The notes beneath the pieces are model-generated. The model was not told where the DNA came from. It did no database searches and worked only from the letters and a program-made list of their open reading frames with translations. The translations under genes and the position numbers were made by a program. DNA of 64,000 nucleotides. It comes from an uncultured Sphingomonadaceae bacterium (GTDB taxonomy: Bacteria > Pseudomonadota > Alphaproteobacteria > Sphingomonadales > Sphingomonadaceae). Positions 616 to 49,549 of this stretch are shown here, piece after piece; the stretch's first letter is position 1, and every line of letters begins with the position of its first letter. The stretch lies in the NCBI GenBank assembly GCA_947497315.1, contig CANMFX010000001.1:434001-498000 (forward strand). Reading direction: 5' to 3'.

Positions 616-3204
616 TTAGAATTTACCGCGCAGGGTCAGGCCAAACATACGTGGCTCCTGAATGAAGGTCGAGCGTGAGCCAGAGCGCAGCACCGTGTTA
701 AACGTAACACCGCGCGTCACTTCATTGGTCAGGTTGGTCACCCAGGCCTCAATGCCCCAGGCATCATCGATATCACCGATACCAGCGCGCATGTTGATCT
801 TGATCGTGCCGTCCTGAACATCGAACGGATTGAGCGCCGCTACGTCAACCGCCGCCTGAACGCTGCCAGCCGCTGTAATGGCTGCAGCATTGGGAACAAC
901 AATCGCCTGTGTTGATGTCCGGCGATCACTTTCGATCCGAAGCTGGCCATTAACGAAGAACTTCAGGCTATCACCAAGGTCACGATCATAGGTTGCACCC
1001 ATGATACCCACCCATTTCGGAGCATTGGTCAGCGAGTTGCCGCACAGGCTCAGAACATTGGGAGAAGTTTGTGTACCAGCACAATCGCTTGGATATCTTG
1101 CATCCGTGTAGGTCAAACCACCATTGATTGTGAAATTGTCATCCGGACGAATGACAGTTTCAATTTCAACACCGGTTGATTTCGCGCTTGGCACGTTAAA
1201 CGTCGTAAACTGAGCGCCAGTGAATTCCAGAACCTGGAAGTCGGTGAATTCCTCATGAAAACCGGCAACGTTCAAGGTAATCGCATTATCCAGGAATTTG
1301 GCTTTCAGACCAACTTCATAAGCATCCACTTCTTCAGAAGCAAAACGCGGATCCGCGCCGCCAGCAGCAGCCGTGGAGTCCAGGTTGAAGCCGCCTGACT
1401 TATAACCATGCGTAAAGCTGGCATAGACCGTTACCGGATCGGCAAACTCATAGCTTACCTTACCTGTGTAGATCAGCTCTTCGTCGCTAAACTCGCTGAC
1501 GAAAGGCCGTGGCAGCGGGAATGGATTTGCATCCGAACCAATGGCTGGTGCGACAAAAGCAAAACAGCCCAGTCCGAAATAACTGTTGATCAGAGGGCTC
1601 GCAGCACCACCGGGAAGACCCCCGGCACCAATCTGTCCCAAAGTCGCAGGGCAGAGATCATTAGTGATCGCTGGCTGAGAGAAGGAACCATCCTTGCTTT
1701 CATCCGAATAGCGCAGACCAACCGTCAGTTTCAGACCTTGCGCAACTTCCAGCGTGTTATGCGTAAAGATCGACCAGCTTTTACTGCTTTGCGTATAAGC
1801 ATTGGTGGTCCGAACCGTTGCTGGATCAATACCAGTCAAAGTCTGCAACGGCGTTGCACCTGCAAAAAGCGGACTTGCGGGGTTCAGCGTAGCACCGCCG
1901 GTACCTGCTGCCAAAAGCGCGCCCACAAGACGATCATAATCAGCGCCTAGACCAAAGTTCGTTGACTGCGTAATATCCTCATCAGAATAATAACCACCAA
2001 CCAACCAGTTCAGTGCACCGCCAAATGCTTCACCCTGAACACGCAGTTCGTGGGTCATCGTATCAATGGCGGTATCGCTACCGGGCAGAACGTTAAAAAT
2101 ATCAAGGCCCGAGAAGTCTGAGTCATAGGCTTCTTCTGCCCGATATTCACGGTAGGAACCGATGTAAATCACGTCAGCACTGTCGCTGATAGGAACTTCG
2201 ACTTCCGCCGTAATGCCCCATTGATCGTTGGACGGGTCAGCCCGCTGGTCGGATGTTGCAATCCGATTGTCCACGGCACGCTGTGCTGCCGTCACATCAA
2301 ACGGAGTCAGAGCAACATCAGGTCCTGCCATCCCGCCGCGTGGGCCAAGACCCACTGCGTTGAATAATCCTGCCGTTTCGATACCAGATTGCAGAACTTC
2401 AATCGCAGCACAGCAGCTCGCCGTACTCTTGGAATAGTCAGCAATCAAGCGCGCCTGAATGCCGCTATCACTTTCAAAGCCCAACTGGCCACGGATCAGA
2501 TATTGCTCCGTATCGTTGGAATCGCCAACACTACCGCCATTGCTGTCGATAATATCAACAAAACCGTCACGCTGGCGATAAGCGCCGGTCAGACGAAATG
2601 CGAGCGTGTCTTCGATAATTGGTGCGTTGATAGCACCCTGCACACTTATATGGTCGAAATTGCCATAGGTCGCGTTTACGAAGCCGCCAAACTCATCCAG
2701 GTCAGGACGCTTGTTGGTGATATTCAAAGCACCAGCCGATGTGTTGCGTCCGAAGAGCGTGCCTTGCGGGCCACGAAGGACTTCGACACGTTCGACGTCA
2801 ACAAACTCACCAAGCGCGACGCCTGGGCGGGACTGATATGCGCCATCTACGAAAATACCGACCGCTGATTCAAAACCGATATTGTTTGATGTCGTACCGA
2901 CACCGCGAATACGCAGAACAACCGTACCTGATGCCGTCTGGGCATTGGAAGTCGAGAAGCTAGGGGATACGCTGCCGATATTCTGAACGTTGACAACGCC
3001 CTGTTGCTCCAGCTGAACCGGACTCACCGCAGTCACAGCGATGGGAATATCTTGCACGTCTTCTGCTCGGCGGGTGGCTGTCACGATGATGACATTGTCA
3101 TCAACTGTTTCTTCAGCACCTTGATCTTGCGCGTATGCTGGCACTGTCATGGCACTCGTACACAGTGCTGCCATAAGGACGCGATTCAAACTCTTCATAA
3201 TCAT
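616..3204 (-). CDS. TonB-dependent outer membrane receptor
   Basis: An 862-residue protein with a signal peptide (about residues 1-25, ending AYAQ), a TonB-box-like stretch (NVIIVTATRR, about 38-47), a plug domain with VEVLRGPQGTLFGRNTSAG near residue 150, and a long beta-barrel ending in the outer-membrane signature GLTLRGKF with terminal Phe. Such receptors take up siderophores, vitamins or oligomers using TonB energy; the ligand cannot be read from the sequence. The start ATG at 3204 is six bases after GGGAGAGA; a second ATG two codons later is also usable. It ends at a strong terminator and is divergent from the DUF3604 unit across a 0.5 kb gap, suggesting shared control or a shared substrate. 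Confidence 0.93.
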   Translation of the reverse strand: MIMKSLNRVLMAALCTSAMTVPAYAQDQGAEETVDDNVIIVTATRRAEDVQDIPIAVTAVSPVQLEQQGVVNVQNIGSVSPSFSTSNAQTASGTVVLRIRGVGTTSNNIGFESAVGIFVDGAYQSRPGVALGEFVDVERVEVLRGPQGTLFGRNTSAGALNITNKRPDLDEFGGFVNATYGNFDHISVQGAINAPIIEDTLAFRLTGAYRQRDGFVDIIDSNGGSVGDSNDTEQYLIRGQLGFESDSGIQARLIADYSKSTASCCAAIEVLQSGIETAGLFNAVGLGPRGGMAGPDVALTPFDVTAAQRAVDNRIATSDQRADPSNDQWGITAEVEVPISDSADVIYIGSYREYRAEEAYDSDFSGLDIFNVLPGSDTAIDTMTHELRVQGEAFGGALNWLVGGYYSDEDITQSTNFGLGADYDRLVGALLAAGTGGATLNPASPLFAGATPLQTLTGIDPATVRTTNAYTQSSKSWSIFTHNTLEVAQGLKLTVGLRYSDESKDGSFSQPAITNDLCPATLGQIGAGGLPGGAASPLINSYFGLGCFAFVAPAIGSDANPFPLPRPFVSEFSDEELIYTGKVSYEFADPVTVYASFTHGYKSGGFNLDSTAAAGGADPRFASEEVDAYEVGLKAKFLDNAITLNVAGFHEEFTDFQVLEFTGAQFTTFNVPSAKSTGVEIETVIRPDDNFTINGGLTYTDARYPSDCAGTQTSPNVLSLCGNSLTNAPKWVGIMGATYDRDLGDSLKFFVNGQLRIESDRRTSTQAIVVPNAAAITAAGSVQAAVDVAALNPFDVQDGTIKINMRAGIGDIDDAWGIEAWVTNLTNEVTRGVTFNTVLRSGSRSTFIQEPRMFGLTLRGKF

Positions 3205-42272: not shown

Positions 42273-42303
42273 ATATCTCAGCTGCGCTGCTTATGGTGAA
42301 GTG

Positions 42304-44739
42304 ATGAGCGGCAACGCACTTCCTGACCCTCTTTCTGACTGGTTCGCCTCGCGCAAATGGACGGTACGGCAACATCAGCTGGAAATGCTTGGAGCCGCAA
42401 GGGCAGGGCGACATGCTTTGCTCACCGCACCCACCGGCGCGGGCAAGACCTTGGCCGGGTTTCTGCCGACGCTGGTGGACCTGATCGAACAACCCAATTT
42501 TGACGGCCTGCACACGCTCTATATTTCACCCCTCAAAGCTCTGGCCGTCGATGTGCAGCGCAACCTGCTGACGCCGATTGACGAAATGGGCCTGCCAATC
42601 AAGGTTGAAACCCGTAGCGGTGATACGCCTGCCAATCGCAAGGCGCGCCAGCGCGTCAAGCCGCCGCAAATATTGCTGACCACACCGGAATCGCTCAACC
42701 TGCTGCTTAGCCAGGAAGACAGTTTCACGCTCTTTGCGAAACTCAAGCATGTGATCATCGATGAGGTGCACGCTTTTGCATCCGGAAAACGCGGTGACCT
42801 GCTTTCCTTATCACTTGCCCGGCTACAGCGGATTGCGCCGGATATGCGCCGCGCCGCCTTGTCGGCAACCGTGGCCGACCCTGATGATTTCCGCGCATGG
42901 CTGGCACCCTATGGCGATATTGACGCTGTCACCCATGTGCTGGGCGAAGAGGGCGCACCTGCCGACATCGCGATCATGATCCCCGAAACCCCGGAAGGCG
43001 ACAAAATCCGCGTGCCATGGGCGGGGCATGCCGGTGTCTATGCCGTTCCCCAAGTGATGGAGCAGATCAAAGCCAACCGGATGACACTGGTTTTCACCAA
43101 CACCCGTTTTCTGGCCGAATTTATCTTCCAGAAACTGTGGGAGATAAATGACGACACCCTGCCGATCGGGGTGCATCACGGCAGCCTCTCCAAAGAAGCC
43201 CGGCGCAAAGTCGAAAATGCCATGGCCTCGGGCAAGATGCGAGCGTTGGTCTGCACGGCCTCCCTGGACCTTGGCGTCGATTGGGGCGACATTGATTGCG
43301 TCATCCAGATGGGCGCGCCCAAGGGCAGCTCACGCCTGCTCCAACGGATTGGCCGGGCTAACCACCGGCTCGATGTCTCGTCCAAGGCGTTGCTGGTGCC
43401 GGGCAATCGTTTTGAATATCTCGAAGCGCAGGCGGCGCTAGATGCGGTCAATGAAGGTCGGCGGGACGGCGAACCGTTTCGCCCTGGCGGACTGGATGTC
43501 CTCGCGCAACATGTCATGACCTGCGCCTGCGCCGCGCCATTTCAGGAAGATGACTTGCTCGACGAACTGCAATCCTCGCTGCCCTATAGCGCGCTCGACA
43601 AGGAGACTTTTGACCGCGTGCTCGGTTTCACGCGGGACGGCGGATACGCGCTAAAAGCCTATGACAAGTTCAAACGCTTGCGACGCGATGACAAGGGCGT
43701 GTGGCATCTCGTCCATCCGCGCTTTGCGACCCAGCACCGGATGAATGCCGGGATTATCGTCGATGCCGCGATGATGAATGTACGGTTCAAAAATGGCCGC
43801 AATCTAGGCAAGGTGGAGGAAAGCTTCGCCGCCATCTTAAGCCCCGGCGATACATTTTTTTTCGCGGGCATGAGCCTGGAACTGATCAAGCTCGACACGT
43901 CCGACGTCATTGTGCGGGCAACCAAGAAAGCGGCGATGATCCCCAGCTATATGGGCCTGCGCCTGCCGCTGACCACGCATCTCTCGGACCGCGTGCGCGG
44001 TTTTTTGACTGATCGAGCAGGGTGGGCACGTTTTCCCGATGATGTGCGCGAGTGGCTGGAGATGCAGGACCATCGATCACGTCTGCCGGAACCCGGCGAG
44101 CTGCTGGTTGAAACTTTCCCGCATGAGGGGATGCACTATATGACGGCCTATAGCTTTGAAGGCTGGAACGCGCATCAGTCGCTTGGCATGCTGCTGACGC
44201 GGCGAATGGAGACGCGCGGACTGAAGCCAATTGGTTTTGTCGCCAATGATTATGCGCTTGCCTGCTGGAGCGTCGAACCCGTCACCGATCCCGCACCACT
44301 GTTCAGTGCAGACATTTTGGAAGACGAGTTTTTCGACTGGATCGAAGGAAGCTATCTGCTCAAACGCGCCTTCCGCGAAGTGGCAGTCATCAGCGGCCTG
44401 GTCGACCGGCAACATCCCGGCAAGCGCAAGACCGGCAAGCAGGTGACTTTCTCCACCGACCTGATTTTCGACGTGTTGCGCAAATATGAGCCCGATCACT
44501 TGCTGATGCAGGCGGCCTGGGCCGATGCAAGGGCACGAATGACCGATGTCGCCCGACTGGGCGACCTGCTAGACCGGGCAGCGGGTTCCATGGTCCATGT
44601 TGAACTCGACCGCGTCAGTCCCCTTTCCGTACCTGTTTTGGTGATGATCGGCCGCGAACATGTGGCGCAAGGAGCCACGGATGACGCGCTGCTGATCGAA
44701 GCGGAAAGCCTGATTGAAGAGGCGATGCGCGGCGATTAG
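42304..44739 (+). CDS. Ligase-associated DNA damage response DEXH-box helicase (Lhr-like)
   Basis: About 811 residues. Superfamily 2 helicase motifs: LLTAPTGAGKTLAGF (Walker A), TTPESLNLL, IIDEVHAFA (DEVH), ALSATVAD, then MTLVFTNTRFLAEF, GVHHGSLSKEARRKVE and QRIGRANHR. The long C-terminal part (ILSPGDTFFFAGMSLELI, HEGMHYMTAYSFEGWNAHQ) is the Lhr-core type found in the LigD/Lig-associated helicase. In other genomes it stands next to a ligase, exonuclease-like protein and the PdeM nuclease; here PdeM lies 4 kb away. The ATG at 42304 or the preceding GTG could be the start. Confidence 0.92.
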   Translation: MSGNALPDPLSDWFASRKWTVRQHQLEMLGAARAGRHALLTAPTGAGKTLAGFLPTLVDLIEQPNFDGLHTLYISPLKALAVDVQRNLLTPIDEMGLPIKVETRSGDTPANRKARQRVKPPQILLTTPESLNLLLSQEDSFTLFAKLKHVIIDEVHAFASGKRGDLLSLSLARLQRIAPDMRRAALSATVADPDDFRAWLAPYGDIDAVTHVLGEEGAPADIAIMIPETPEGDKIRVPWAGHAGVYAVPQVMEQIKANRMTLVFTNTRFLAEFIFQKLWEINDDTLPIGVHHGSLSKEARRKVENAMASGKMRALVCTASLDLGVDWGDIDCVIQMGAPKGSSRLLQRIGRANHRLDVSSKALLVPGNRFEYLEAQAALDAVNEGRRDGEPFRPGGLDVLAQHVMTCACAAPFQEDDLLDELQSSLPYSALDKETFDRVLGFTRDGGYALKAYDKFKRLRRDDKGVWHLVHPRFATQHRMNAGIIVDAAMMNVRFKNGRNLGKVEESFAAILSPGDTFFFAGMSLELIKLDTSDVIVRATKKAAMIPSYMGLRLPLTTHLSDRVRGFLTDRAGWARFPDDVREWLEMQDHRSRLPEPGELLVETFPHEGMHYMTAYSFEGWNAHQSLGMLLTRRMETRGLKPIGFVANDYALACWSVEPVTDPAPLFSADILEDEFFDWIEGSYLLKRAFREVAVISGLVDRQHPGKRKTGKQVTFSTDLIFDVLRKYEPDHLLMQAAWADARARMTDVARLGDLLDRAAGSMVHVELDRVSPLSVPVLVMIGREHVAQGATDDALLIEAESLIEEAMRGD

Positions 44740-44799: not shown

Positions 44800-45783
44800 A
44801 TGAGCATGTCTTTTCCCCTGACCGCAGTGTTACCGCTGCTATTTTCAGCCCAAATTGCTGAGCCGGCGGCGCCTTTGCCGGAAACGGCAGCCGCCATACC
44901 GGAAATTGTCGAACCCGAAGCGATATTGGCTGATCGCCTGCCCGATCAGTTCATCAAGCCGGATGCCGAACAGATAGAGATTACCGAAGACCGCAGGGCA
45001 CGCATGACAGTTCCTGTCAGTATCGAAGGAAGCGGCCCTTTCAAGTTCATTATTGATACAGCAGCACAACGAACAATATTGTCCAAAGAAATTGCGGGTA
45101 GCCTGACCCTGGAACTGGAAGAGGAGGTCAATATCATAGCGTTGGCAGGCAACACGATAGTGCAAACCGTCTATGTTCCTGAGCTGACTCTGGGCAGTCG
45201 CAGCTACGGGGGCATTGTTGCACCAACCTTTCGGTCAACCAATATTGGCGCGGATGGCGTATTGGGTCTCGATAGTCTGCAGGGACAGCGCATATTATTT
45301 GATTTTATCACCAGCGCCATTTCGGTCGAAGACACGACCAAAAAGCGGAAGGCCCGCTCTCGCCGGGAAATCGTTGTCACCGCCAGGCGCCGTTCCGGTC
45401 AGTTGATTTTTACCAATGCCGAAATTTCAGGCATCAAGGTCAGTGTAATCATTGATACTGGTGGAGAGCTTTCAATCGGAAACAAGGCGCTGCAACGCCG
45501 CTTGCGGATGAAGCGCTCGGCACTGCAACAGATTAGTCTGGTCGACGTGACCGGCCGTTCCATTGCGGCCGACTATGGTGTTGCCAGTGAGCTGCACATC
45601 GGTCGTGCACGCTTTGGGGTGATTCCCATCGCCTTTGCCGATATCGCACCTTTTGCCGCCCTGAACCTGCAAAAAAAGCCGGCCCTGTTTCTGGGGATGG
45701 ATGCGCTGCGGAAATTTGACCGGATGGCGATCGATTTCGCCAACCGTAAAATCTATTTCCTGTTGCCAAAGGGCGCGACCTGA
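44800..45783 (+). CDS. Two-lobed retropepsin-like aspartic protease (degenerate first site)
   Basis: About 327 residues with an N-terminal signal peptide (FPLTAVLPLLFSAQIAEPAA) so periplasmic. The first lobe has MTVPVSIEGSGPFKFIIDTAAQRTILS, in which the catalytic triplet is DTA rather than DTG, ending GVLGLDSL. The second lobe has GIKVSVIIDTGGELSIGNK with an intact DTG and ends LFLGMDALRKF. Retropepsin proteins normally carry one site and dimerise; two lobes in one chain resemble pepsin. The first site is probably impaired. Three near start codons lie within ten bases; 44800 is used. A close paralogue follows in tandem. Confidence 0.87.
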   Translation: MSMSFPLTAVLPLLFSAQIAEPAAPLPETAAAIPEIVEPEAILADRLPDQFIKPDAEQIEITEDRRARMTVPVSIEGSGPFKFIIDTAAQRTILSKEIAGSLTLELEEEVNIIALAGNTIVQTVYVPELTLGSRSYGGIVAPTFRSTNIGADGVLGLDSLQGQRILFDFITSAISVEDTTKKRKARSRREIVVTARRRSGQLIFTNAEISGIKVSVIIDTGGELSIGNKALQRRLRMKRSALQQISLVDVTGRSIAADYGVASELHIGRARFGVIPIAFADIAPFAALNLQKKPALFLGMDALRKFDRMAIDFANRKIYFLLPKGAT

Positions 45784-45842
45784 TCGGGGTTTTGCTGCAA
45801 GCCCGATTAAAAGCAGGAAAGAACAACATTTAGCAGGAGAGT

Positions 45843-46820
45843 ATGATGCCGCTTTTTTCCACCAACCTTTTCCCCACCCTTGCCGCCTCCGCGCTCGCCT
45901 TTGCCTATCCGGTACCAATGGGCCAATCGGTGGAACCCGGTAGCCTGACCAAACCGGAAAATGAAATTATTGCCATCGACAAAGACCGTGCGCAGCGAAT
46001 GACTGTTCCGGTCAGTATTGAAGGCCGCGGACCATTTTCCTTTGTCATTGATACCGGTGCAGAGCGTACCGTTCTCTCTCGCAAAATTGCAAAAAACCTG
46101 GCGCTGGATGCCGAAGAACCAGCGCAGTTAATAAGCATCGCCGGCAGCAGCATGGTCGATATGGTTTATGTCCCTGAATTGACCCTCGGCAAGAAAAGCT
46201 ATGACAGTTTAATCGCCCCGGTCCTGCTTGCCCGCCATATCGGTGCGGACGGAATATTGGGTCTTGATGGTCTGCAGGATCAACGGATATTATTCGACTT
46301 TATCAACAATCAGATTTCCATCGAAGACACGGCCGCTCCGCAGCGGATGGCTTCAAACCGTGAGATTATTGTGACCGCGCGGCGCAAGTCCGGTCAACTT
46401 ATCTTCACCGAAGCAACGATTTCCGGGCTCAAGGTCAATGTGATCGTTGATACCGGTGCGGAGGTTTCGATTGCCAACCTGGTTTTGAAAAGGCGGCTAA
46501 TAAAACGCGCGAAAGAACTGGGTGAAGAAAACAGCCTGATCGCGGTGACCGGCCAGACACTGGGTGTGGAATTCGGCAAAGCCCGGGATTTTCGCATTGG
46601 CCGGGCCAAATTCGACAATCTACCAGTTGCATTCGCTGATGCCCCGCCTTTTGAGAAGCTGGGGATGCACAAGAAACCGGCATTGTTGCTCGGCATGGAC
46701 GTGCTGCGTAAATTTGATCAGGTTGCAATCGACTTCAAGAAACGGAAAATCCATTTCCTGTTGCCAAAAGAGACAAGGCGCTATTTCGAGCAACCAAAAA
46801 ACAGCCGCATTAACTCATAA
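45843..46820 (+). CDS. Two-lobed retropepsin-like aspartic protease (both sites intact)
   Basis: 325 residues, signal peptide at about 1-20 (LFPTLAASALAFAYP). Lobe one holds VSIEGRGPFSFVIDTGAERTVLS and ends GILGLDGL; lobe two holds GLKVNVIVDTGAEVSIAN and ends LLLGMDVLRKF. Both aspartic triplets are DTGA, so a pepsin-like intramolecular active site could form. It shares its whole layout with the preceding gene (for example REIIVTARR-SGQLIFT between the lobes) and differs mostly in the tail, so the two arose by tandem duplication. The ribosome site is AGGAGAG. Periplasmic protein turnover or processing is a guess. Confidence 0.88.
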   Translation: MMPLFSTNLFPTLAASALAFAYPVPMGQSVEPGSLTKPENEIIAIDKDRAQRMTVPVSIEGRGPFSFVIDTGAERTVLSRKIAKNLALDAEEPAQLISIAGSSMVDMVYVPELTLGKKSYDSLIAPVLLARHIGADGILGLDGLQDQRILFDFINNQISIEDTAAPQRMASNREIIVTARRKSGQLIFTEATISGLKVNVIVDTGAEVSIANLVLKRRLIKRAKELGEENSLIAVTGQTLGVEFGKARDFRIGRAKFDNLPVAFADAPPFEKLGMHKKPALLLGMDVLRKFDQVAIDFKKRKIHFLLPKETRRYFEQPKNSRINS

Positions 46821-48808: not shown

Positions 48809-49549
48809 ATGGTTCCCCTTTCGTTCGTCAATCATCTGTTCCACGTGGCTGGCCCAGCGGCCTTATACTGGCCAGTGCACAAGGCATTGCTGGTGGCCGA
48901 CCTGCATCTTGAAAAAGCCAGCTTCTATGCTCGCCAGGGGCAGATGCTGCCACCTTATGACAGCCGTGCGACGCTGGATGAGCTGGCTAGCCTGATCACC
49001 CAAACAGCCGCAGAGACGGTCTTTTGTCTTGGCGACAATTATCACGATGATGACGGCGAGGCACGATTGGAAGGCGAAGCGGCACGCTTGCTGGAAACGC
49101 TAACCCAAAACACGCGCTGGGTGTGGATCAGCGGCAATCACGACCGCGATGTAAGCGGCCTATGGGGCGGCGAGGTCATGACCGAATGGATTGGTGATGG
49201 TCTCGCGCTGCGTCACGAAGCGACACGGAGTACTGACCTGCCTGAAATTTCCGGTCATTTTCATCCCAAATTGCGCGTGCCCGTGCGCGGACGGCATGTG
49301 TCCCGGCGCTGTTTTGTCAAAGGCGAAAAACATTTGATCATGCCAGCTTTTGGTGCGTTGACCGGCGGACTGGCAGCCAACCATAGCGCGATTGAAGAGG
49401 CTATCGCAGGCCCGGCGGAAGCGATCATCGCACTGAAAGAAAAGCTTGTGCGCTTCAATCTCGGATTCGCCTCTGCATCATCCCGGCCGCAGCCGGAAAC
49501 CACGCAAAAAACCCAACTCACATTACCACTGGCCATAGCCAATAGCTGA
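48809..49549 (+). CDS. pdeM: Ligase-associated DNA damage response endonuclease PdeM
   Basis: 246 residues of the calcineurin-like phosphoesterase fold. Metal ligands: VADLHLEKASFYA (DxH), FCLGDNYHDDDGE (GD), ISGNHDRDV (GNHD) and SGHFHPKLRV (GHxH). The family works with a DNA ligase, helicase and nuclease in bacterial end repair. Here it is separated from its helicase partner at 42.3-44.7 kb by five genes. It diverges from trhO and is followed 17 bases later by bioF. The C-terminal tail is Thr/Gln-rich. Confidence 0.9.
   Translation: MVPLSFVNHLFHVAGPAALYWPVHKALLVADLHLEKASFYARQGQMLPPYDSRATLDELASLITQTAAETVFCLGDNYHDDDGEARLEGEAARLLETLTQNTRWVWISGNHDRDVSGLWGGEVMTEWIGDGLALRHEATRSTDLPEISGHFHPKLRVPVRGRHVSRRCFVKGEKHLIMPAFGALTGGLAANHSAIEEAIAGPAEAIIALKEKLVRFNLGFASASSRPQPETTQKTQLTLPLAIANS

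Follow-up and report, generated by a model that had tools for sequence, protein, structure and literature searches.

The window, a 64,000-nucleotide stretch of DNA from an uncultured Sphingomonadaceae bacterium, contains two retropepsin-like genes arranged head to tail on the forward strand and separated by a 59-base gap. The upstream gene (copy A) and the downstream gene (copy B) encode proteins that share 57% of their residues across 278 aligned positions; within a single chain, lobe 1 and lobe 2 are 26–27% identical (106–130 positions). Both reading frames, their catalytic triplets and the GLD/GMD closing strands had been described in an initial annotation of the sequence and were found as described:

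44800..45783, + strand: copy A, two-lobed retropepsin-like protein of 327 residues (open reading frame; PF13650; AlphaFold2)
45055..45063, + strand: A lobe-1 triplet Asp-Thr-Ala, residues 86–88 (sequence)
45265..45273, + strand: A lobe-1 closing motif Gly-Leu-Asp (sequence; equivalent columns conserved)
45367..45390, + strand: A inter-lobe strand EIVVTARR, TonB-box-like (TonB-box matrix; predicted strand E190-194)
45454..45462, + strand: A lobe-2 triplet Asp-Thr-Gly, next residue Gly (sequence)
45694..45702, + strand: A lobe-2 closing motif Gly-Met-Asp (sequence)
45843..46820, + strand: copy B, two-lobed retropepsin-like protein of 325 residues (open reading frame; PF13650; AlphaFold2)
46050..46058, + strand: B lobe-1 triplet Asp-Thr-Gly (sequence)
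46260..46268, + strand: B lobe-1 closing motif Gly-Leu-Asp (sequence)
46362..46385, + strand: B inter-lobe strand EIIVTARR, TonB-box-like (TonB-box matrix; predicted strand E175-182)
46449..46457, + strand: B lobe-2 triplet Asp-Thr-Gly (sequence)
46692..46700, + strand: B lobe-2 closing motif Gly-Met-Asp (sequence)

The catalytic loops read FIIDTAAQR (lobe 1) and VIIDTGGEL (lobe 2) in A, and FVIDTGAER and VIVDTGAEV in B; the corresponding closing strands are VLGLD and FLGMD in A, and ILGLD and LLGMD in B. Copy A keeps both catalytic aspartates and the threonines that follow them, and the replacement of glycine by alanine in lobe 1 is the sole change within its triplets. The residue after the second DTG is glycine in A and alanine in B.

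Predicted fold, export and gene neighborhood

Both chains exceed the curated cut-off of 24.3 bits for PF13650 (Asp_protease_2, clan AA), each over two stretches (74.2 bits for A and 92.8 bits for B), and PF13975 likewise matches two stretches in each protein. AlphaFold2 models built from related rows (mean pLDDT 82.4 for A and 80.6 for B) agree with the proposed division of each chain into two retropepsin-like lobes. Foldseek searches with the two models returned PDB entry 9iy9 as the best match for both, followed by plasmepsins, renin, and pepsin. VIA-align, which was applied to the A model, gave Z scores of 20.1 for 9iy9 (rmsd 3.6, 252 aligned), 17.7 for tethered HIV-1 protease (194 aligned), and about 17 for renin. 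Over the full chain, both models match PDB structures of two-lobed aspartic proteases, so that one chain is predicted to make a whole two-lobed enzyme. Pfam, Foldseek, and VIA-align place lobe 2 in the retropepsin fold, which removes the possibility, raised earlier, that this lobe is of another kind. Nor are homologs always single-lobed: two-lobed relatives are common, though single-lobed ones exist too.

The suggestion that both proteins carry signals for the periplasm holds in part. The N-termini of A and B are both hydrophobic, but at the named loci of the genus the hydrophobic stretch lacks a preceding lysine or arginine in all 22 A copies and in 18 of the 22 B copies. A basic residue is present at this place in the three relatives tested that have A but no B alongside (A-only relatives) and in 20 of 52 other rows. 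By analogy with the family, export of A and B is plausible.

Upstream of the pair lies an Lhr-type DNA helicase (PF19306, PF08494; window positions 42301–44739), and downstream are a GST, a rhodanese (UPF0176), and a calcineurin-like phosphoesterase (48809–49549). The helicase and the phosphoesterase flank the proteases across the genus, and the single copies of Blastomonas and nearby lineages also lie directly after the helicase. Three A-only loci (L097, L098, and L138) keep the GST and the rhodanese, and the helicase and the phosphoesterase were not found next to them. An assignment of function from these neighbors was considered and set aside; a pathway shared by a cytoplasmic helicase and an exported protease is unlikely, and no function was drawn from it.

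Distribution and history of the two copies

Among the 32 genomes of the window's genus, 31 contain a match and 29 carry A and B side by side. The exceptions are G022, without a match; G015, with a single fragment at the end of a contig; and G014, whose B is split over two frames. Named members of this genus-level set include Parasphingorhabdus marina and P. flavimaris. More broadly, matches occur in 118 of 149 genomes drawn from the window's family, 95 of these having one match by a hand count of the table, and in 64 of 118 genomes drawn from its order. At the level of the class, a broader profile at E 1e-8 matched 65 of 386 drawn genomes, a figure that includes single-lobed matches. The search for the pair in relatives also recovered A without an adjoining B at four loci (L037, L097, L098, and L138), all of which read DTAAQ; for L037 (G099), it is the only match in a whole-genome search.

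An 81-row tree groups the B copies in a clade of their own (SH-aLRT 99) and the A copies with the four A-only relatives (99); A and B join to the exclusion of the single-copy Blastomonas and similar lineages (97). The original reading of the pair as a tandem duplication with diverging copies is supported. Because A-only relatives fall inside the A clade and lack B alongside, the duplication predates the split of the window's genus from its sister lineage, with B lost on one side.

Several further loci were observed during the search. G014 (MAG NTP38; L031/L095) has a frame-split B beside which orthologs of the helicase, A, and the phosphoesterase were not found, which may reflect decay or an assembly error. 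The window's own genome encodes an additional single-lobed retropepsin-like protein with DSGA (L348; C2:903643-903969). In another genome, three single-lobed retropepsin-like reading frames with DTGA lie in a row, each after a short unrelated reading frame (L201; G356 C98:2995-5340).

The alanine of lobe 1 is present in A in 28 of the 29 genomes with both copies. The exception (L025) reads DTGSQ, and a named record from P. flavimaris (L078) shows the same motif. No other A copy of the genus was seen with a lobe-1 DTG, and the position of L025/L078 in the tree marks it as a return from alanine to glycine.

Selection was compared in 23 A/B sets, giving 253 pairs for each copy, from which pairs were dropped if dS was below 0.05, above 1.2, or not computable. 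The usable pairs numbered 78 of 253 for A, with a median dN/dS of 0.078, and 40 of 253 for B, with a median of 0.079. Across all 253 pairs, mean identity was 0.82 for A and 0.78 for B, and A was the more conserved copy in 208. Equal dN/dS, this greater conservation, and the near-fixation of alanine in the genus led to decay of A being rejected as an explanation. The initial annotation had called the first site of A broken and spoken of partial loss; the retained aspartates and threonines, the alanine shared by nearly all A copies of the genus, a dN/dS as low as that of B, and the recurrence of lobe-1 alanine elsewhere leave this description without support. It is important to note that purifying selection would look identical for an inactive binding protein.

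Of the 21 positions that are fixed differently in A and B, comparison with 11 near outgroup rows assigns 11 changes to A and 3 to B. Eight of the 11 A-side changes are in lobe 1, including positions 88, 90, and 93 of the catalytic loop. The A-type residue is, however, already common among 42 wider rows at positions 90, 159, and 162 of lobe 1 and 265 of lobe 2, so that the count overstates the case for coordinated change around the site. Taken together, the A-side changes read as remodeling, not decay.

Variation at the third triplet residue and alternative readings of the pair

The third triplet residue was surveyed in 258 distinct two-lobed rows (L209 and one of the L228 rows, both from other families, are one protein). 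In lobe 1, it is a residue other than glycine in 49 of 258 rows, 33 of them in the A lineage and 16 outside it. By group, this applies to 29 of 30 A copies of the genus, all 4 A-only relatives, none of 28 B copies of the genus, 3 of the remaining 160 rows from the window's family (two with alanine, one with serine), and 13 of 36 rows from other families. Lobe 2 has glycine in 257 of 258 rows, and the single exception also lacks the lobe-1 aspartate. On a tree of 180 rows with the motif masked, lobe 1 requires at least 11 parsimony changes, which read as ten gains and the return to glycine in L025. The asymmetry between the lobes (10 gains versus 1) has a p value of 0.012 in a count that takes in long-branch rows, one serine row, and one row also without the aspartate; restricted to the five better-placed origins (5 versus 1), the p value is 0.22.

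Single-lobed relatives have glycine in 40 of 40 rows, a set (including L331) chosen by short frames from the class-level matches. Compared with these, the 13 of 36 two-lobed rows of other families give a Fisher p value of 1.5e-5, in which independence is overstated. Alanine thus seems tolerated in one lobe while the other keeps its glycine, a combination that is possible in a single chain, whereas a homodimer must change both sites at once. The near-fixed and recurrent change of lobe-1 glycine to alanine is a real pattern, and a description of it was not found in the open-licence literature.

One reading of this change is that A is a pseudoprotease that binds a B-type substrate without cutting it, acting as decoy, chaperone, or regulator, with B as the active enzyme. 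Lobe-1 glycine is near universal in the family outside the genus and the A-only lineage (157 of 160 rows), the residue after the lobe-2 triplet of A is glycine instead of alanine, and pseudo-enzymes do exist in the family, where L282 and L270 lack the lobe-2 aspartate and L316 that of lobe 1. However, 30 of 30 A rows of the genus and 4 of 4 A-only rows keep both catalytic aspartates with a threonine after each. Moreover, the tandem copies of families f21 and f11 all have lobe-1 alanine, which leaves those loci without a canonical copy; canonical copies are present elsewhere in the genomes. The available text of PMC11313796 describes the Plasmodium falciparum histo-aspartic protease (HAP) as active with alanine: its motifs read FHTASS and LDSATS, and the change of aspartate to histidine did not abolish activity. 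Alanine in the triplet therefore does not exclude activity by itself, even if HAP is an imperfect precedent in that its lobe-1 aspartate is also missing. Gly27 of HIV protease and Gly34 and Gly217 of pepsin are given there as ligand contacts (PMC11313796), so an effect of alanine on specificity or rate is likely, and the alanine in A could lower or stop activity. On balance, a non-cutting A is possible but rather unlikely.

Elsewhere in the family, L270 and L282 (G100 and G168, of one genus) have glycine in place of the lobe-2 catalytic aspartate and are probable true pseudo-enzymes.

The initial annotation had also raised the idea of a heterodimer or of an inhibitor paired with an active enzyme, in which A and B would depend on each other or A would inhibit B. 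Their genes are adjacent, probably share one transcript, and are retained together by 29 of the 32 genus members. Slightly in favor of the idea as well, G286, which belongs to another family, has besides its tandem pair a second row, of four two-lobed genes (C1:2986394-2990897; L208, L213, and L214): one copy has GTG as its lobe-1 triplet and DSA as its lobe-2 triplet, and the three beside it keep aspartate and glycine in both lobes. A damaged copy may thus stand beside sound ones in the family, but the damage in G286 is the loss of aspartate. Each chain of the window's pair has two lobes and a complete pair of aspartates, and the dependence of A on B is at odds with the four relatives that have A and no B alongside, one of them with a single match genome-wide (G099), and with G014, in which the frame-broken B stands alone. 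Finally, each of five tandem pairs in other lineages is uniform in triplet type: lobe-1 alanine in all four genes of the G286 and G420 pairs and in both of G276, and lobe-1 glycine in both of G277 and of G059, the last from the window's own family. Among the pairs examined, one that differs only in lobe-1 alanine versus glycine was seen in the window's genus alone. These observations disfavor the proposal, and an obligate heterodimer or an inhibitory A is improbable.

A third alternative concerns the strand that joins the lobes, which resembles a TonB box, the proposal being that TonB binds or pulls the enzyme. A matrix was derived from 27 TonB boxes of the window's own genome, read from 30 loci of 35 plug-domain matches. 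Among 20,174 octamers in 62 open reading frames of the window, EIVVTARR of A and EIIVTARR of B ranked second and third (18.3 and 18.1; next octamer 10.6), behind the box of a TonB-dependent receptor at 616–3204 (24.7) that is itself among the 27; because these boxes were picked by a pattern, the matrix is biased toward that pattern. Further in favor of the proposal, E-I-[IVM]-V-T-[AG] occurs in the DNA of the window's genome at three places (A, B, and a region before an MlaA domain), and the strand is missing from 38 of 38 same-fold rows of other families. Within the family, the strand in the looser form [DE]I[VIT][VI]x[AG][RKQ] occurs in 134 of 169 unnamed rows and in all 55 named rows, and the strict TonB-box pattern occurs in 91 of 169 and 25 of 55, respectively; in other families, each is found in 0 of 38 rows.

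By the matrix, the strands of A and B carry a TonB-box sequence, but one that is not kept throughout the family. Its threonine is present in 128 of 188 family rows, among which some genomes are repeated, with arginine in 27 and lysine in 10, and it is replaced in the A-only relatives. In addition, the strand is predicted by AlphaFold2 as a folded beta strand, and lobe 1 has an equivalent strand. A true TonB box is, on this evidence, very improbable. A dual role, in which TonB, energized by the inner membrane, would use the joining strand as a docking or pulling site to open, close, or position what is naturally a tethered retropepsin, is just as much of a long shot. If true, the machinery behind outer-membrane uptake would also gate a protease, and the DTA/DTG copy would be one of two tuned versions.

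Related sequences occur in other proteins of the same genome. The MlaA-domain protein (L062:1159-2193; C3:167651) has EIVVTAR, a TonB-box-like sequence, in the long N-terminal extension that precedes its MlaA domain, and three small, apparently secreted proteins (L143, L146, and L154) have EIVVCA[RK], with cysteine where TonB boxes have threonine.

Proposed model and relation to known aspartic proteases

Based on these data, A and B are probably old tandem paralogs that encode two exported monomeric proteases with diverged sites, a reading to which we assign a probability of about 0.6. Each chain is predicted to adopt the fold of pepsin or of a tethered retroviral protease, with each lobe supplying one catalytic aspartate and no partner needed, and would act as an exported single-chain, two-lobed retropepsin-like endopeptidase. 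Following the duplication, which the tree places before the split of the genus from its sister lineage, the A branch changed its lobe-1 DTG to DTA, together with some other residues around the lobe-1 site, and has since been maintained by strong purifying selection. Most likely, A would still cleave proteins, its site asymmetric and its specificity or pH range altered, and would work beside the canonical B. The presence of two separately encoded lobes may be what lets lobe 1 lose its glycine while lobe 2 keeps it, in line with the pattern across relatives. Its long retention, and the repeated origin of its lobe-1 motif among relatives, make A more probably a functional variant than a ruined copy.

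More generally, pepsin is regarded as the descendant of a single-lobed protease whose gene was duplicated and fused. The family described here offers bacterial proteins in which fused retropepsin lobes are still recognizably alike and in which symmetry has been lost repeatedly at a single defined position, almost always that of lobe 1. It makes testable which parts of a twofold-symmetric active site are free to change once they are on one chain, and it warns that a copy with DTG changed to DTA should not be called dead.

Retropepsins of the MEROPS A2 type are single-lobed chains that dimerize and carry an Asp-Thr/Ser-Gly-Ala motif. A and B depart from this type by having two lobes per chain; the motif is present in both lobes of B, whereas A has DTAA and DTGG instead. 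The lobe fold and the facing arrangement of lobes are those of retropepsins and of tethered HIV-1 protease, with Asp-Thr-Gly-Ala as in B, but natural retropepsins are homodimers of one lobe, and A and B each combine two different lobes, in A with alanine in one of them. With NCBIfam TIGR02281 (clan_AA_DTGA), A and B score 28.5 and 40.5 bits, below its cut-off of 57.95. As in pepsin family A1, structural matches run along two lobes with one aspartate each, but among the matches of A and B up to E 1 there was no pepsin-family Pfam model, and their lobes are still recognizably alike.

Bacterial pepsin homologs, as presented in the available text of PMC2761423, share the bilobed form with one aspartate per lobe and are predicted to be intracellular. 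The RloA/RimB-type proteins of Pseudomonas (PMC12239564) are also secreted bacterial retropepsin-like proteases, but RloA is described in the accessible part of that paper as having one lobe per chain and dimerizing, unlike the two-lobed A and B. Single-domain clan AA proteins of alphaproteobacteria appear in the portion of PMC2642776 that was available. HAP resembles A in being described as active with alanine at the third triplet position; as portrayed in the same text of PMC11313796, it differs in being a eukaryotic, pepsin-type enzyme with histidine for the lobe-1 aspartate and alanine in both lobes. In open-licence papers, which give a weak negative, no account was found of two-lobed bacterial retropepsins, of DTA triplets, or of TonB boxes in such proteases, and the main text of a study of the Novosphingobium periplasmic proteome (PMC3608174) does not contain "aspart" or "protease".

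The closest structural counterpart is 9iy9, a putative endopeptidase of Bacteroides fragilis annotated as "exported protein", for which no paper under that code was found in the open-licence literature. It is likewise an exported bacterial chain with two retropepsin-like lobes, although it belongs to another phylum, has 420 residues, and is 14–17% identical to A and B. In kind, A and B are thus ordinary clan AA aspartic proteases, whose two-lobed form is already known from 9iy9.
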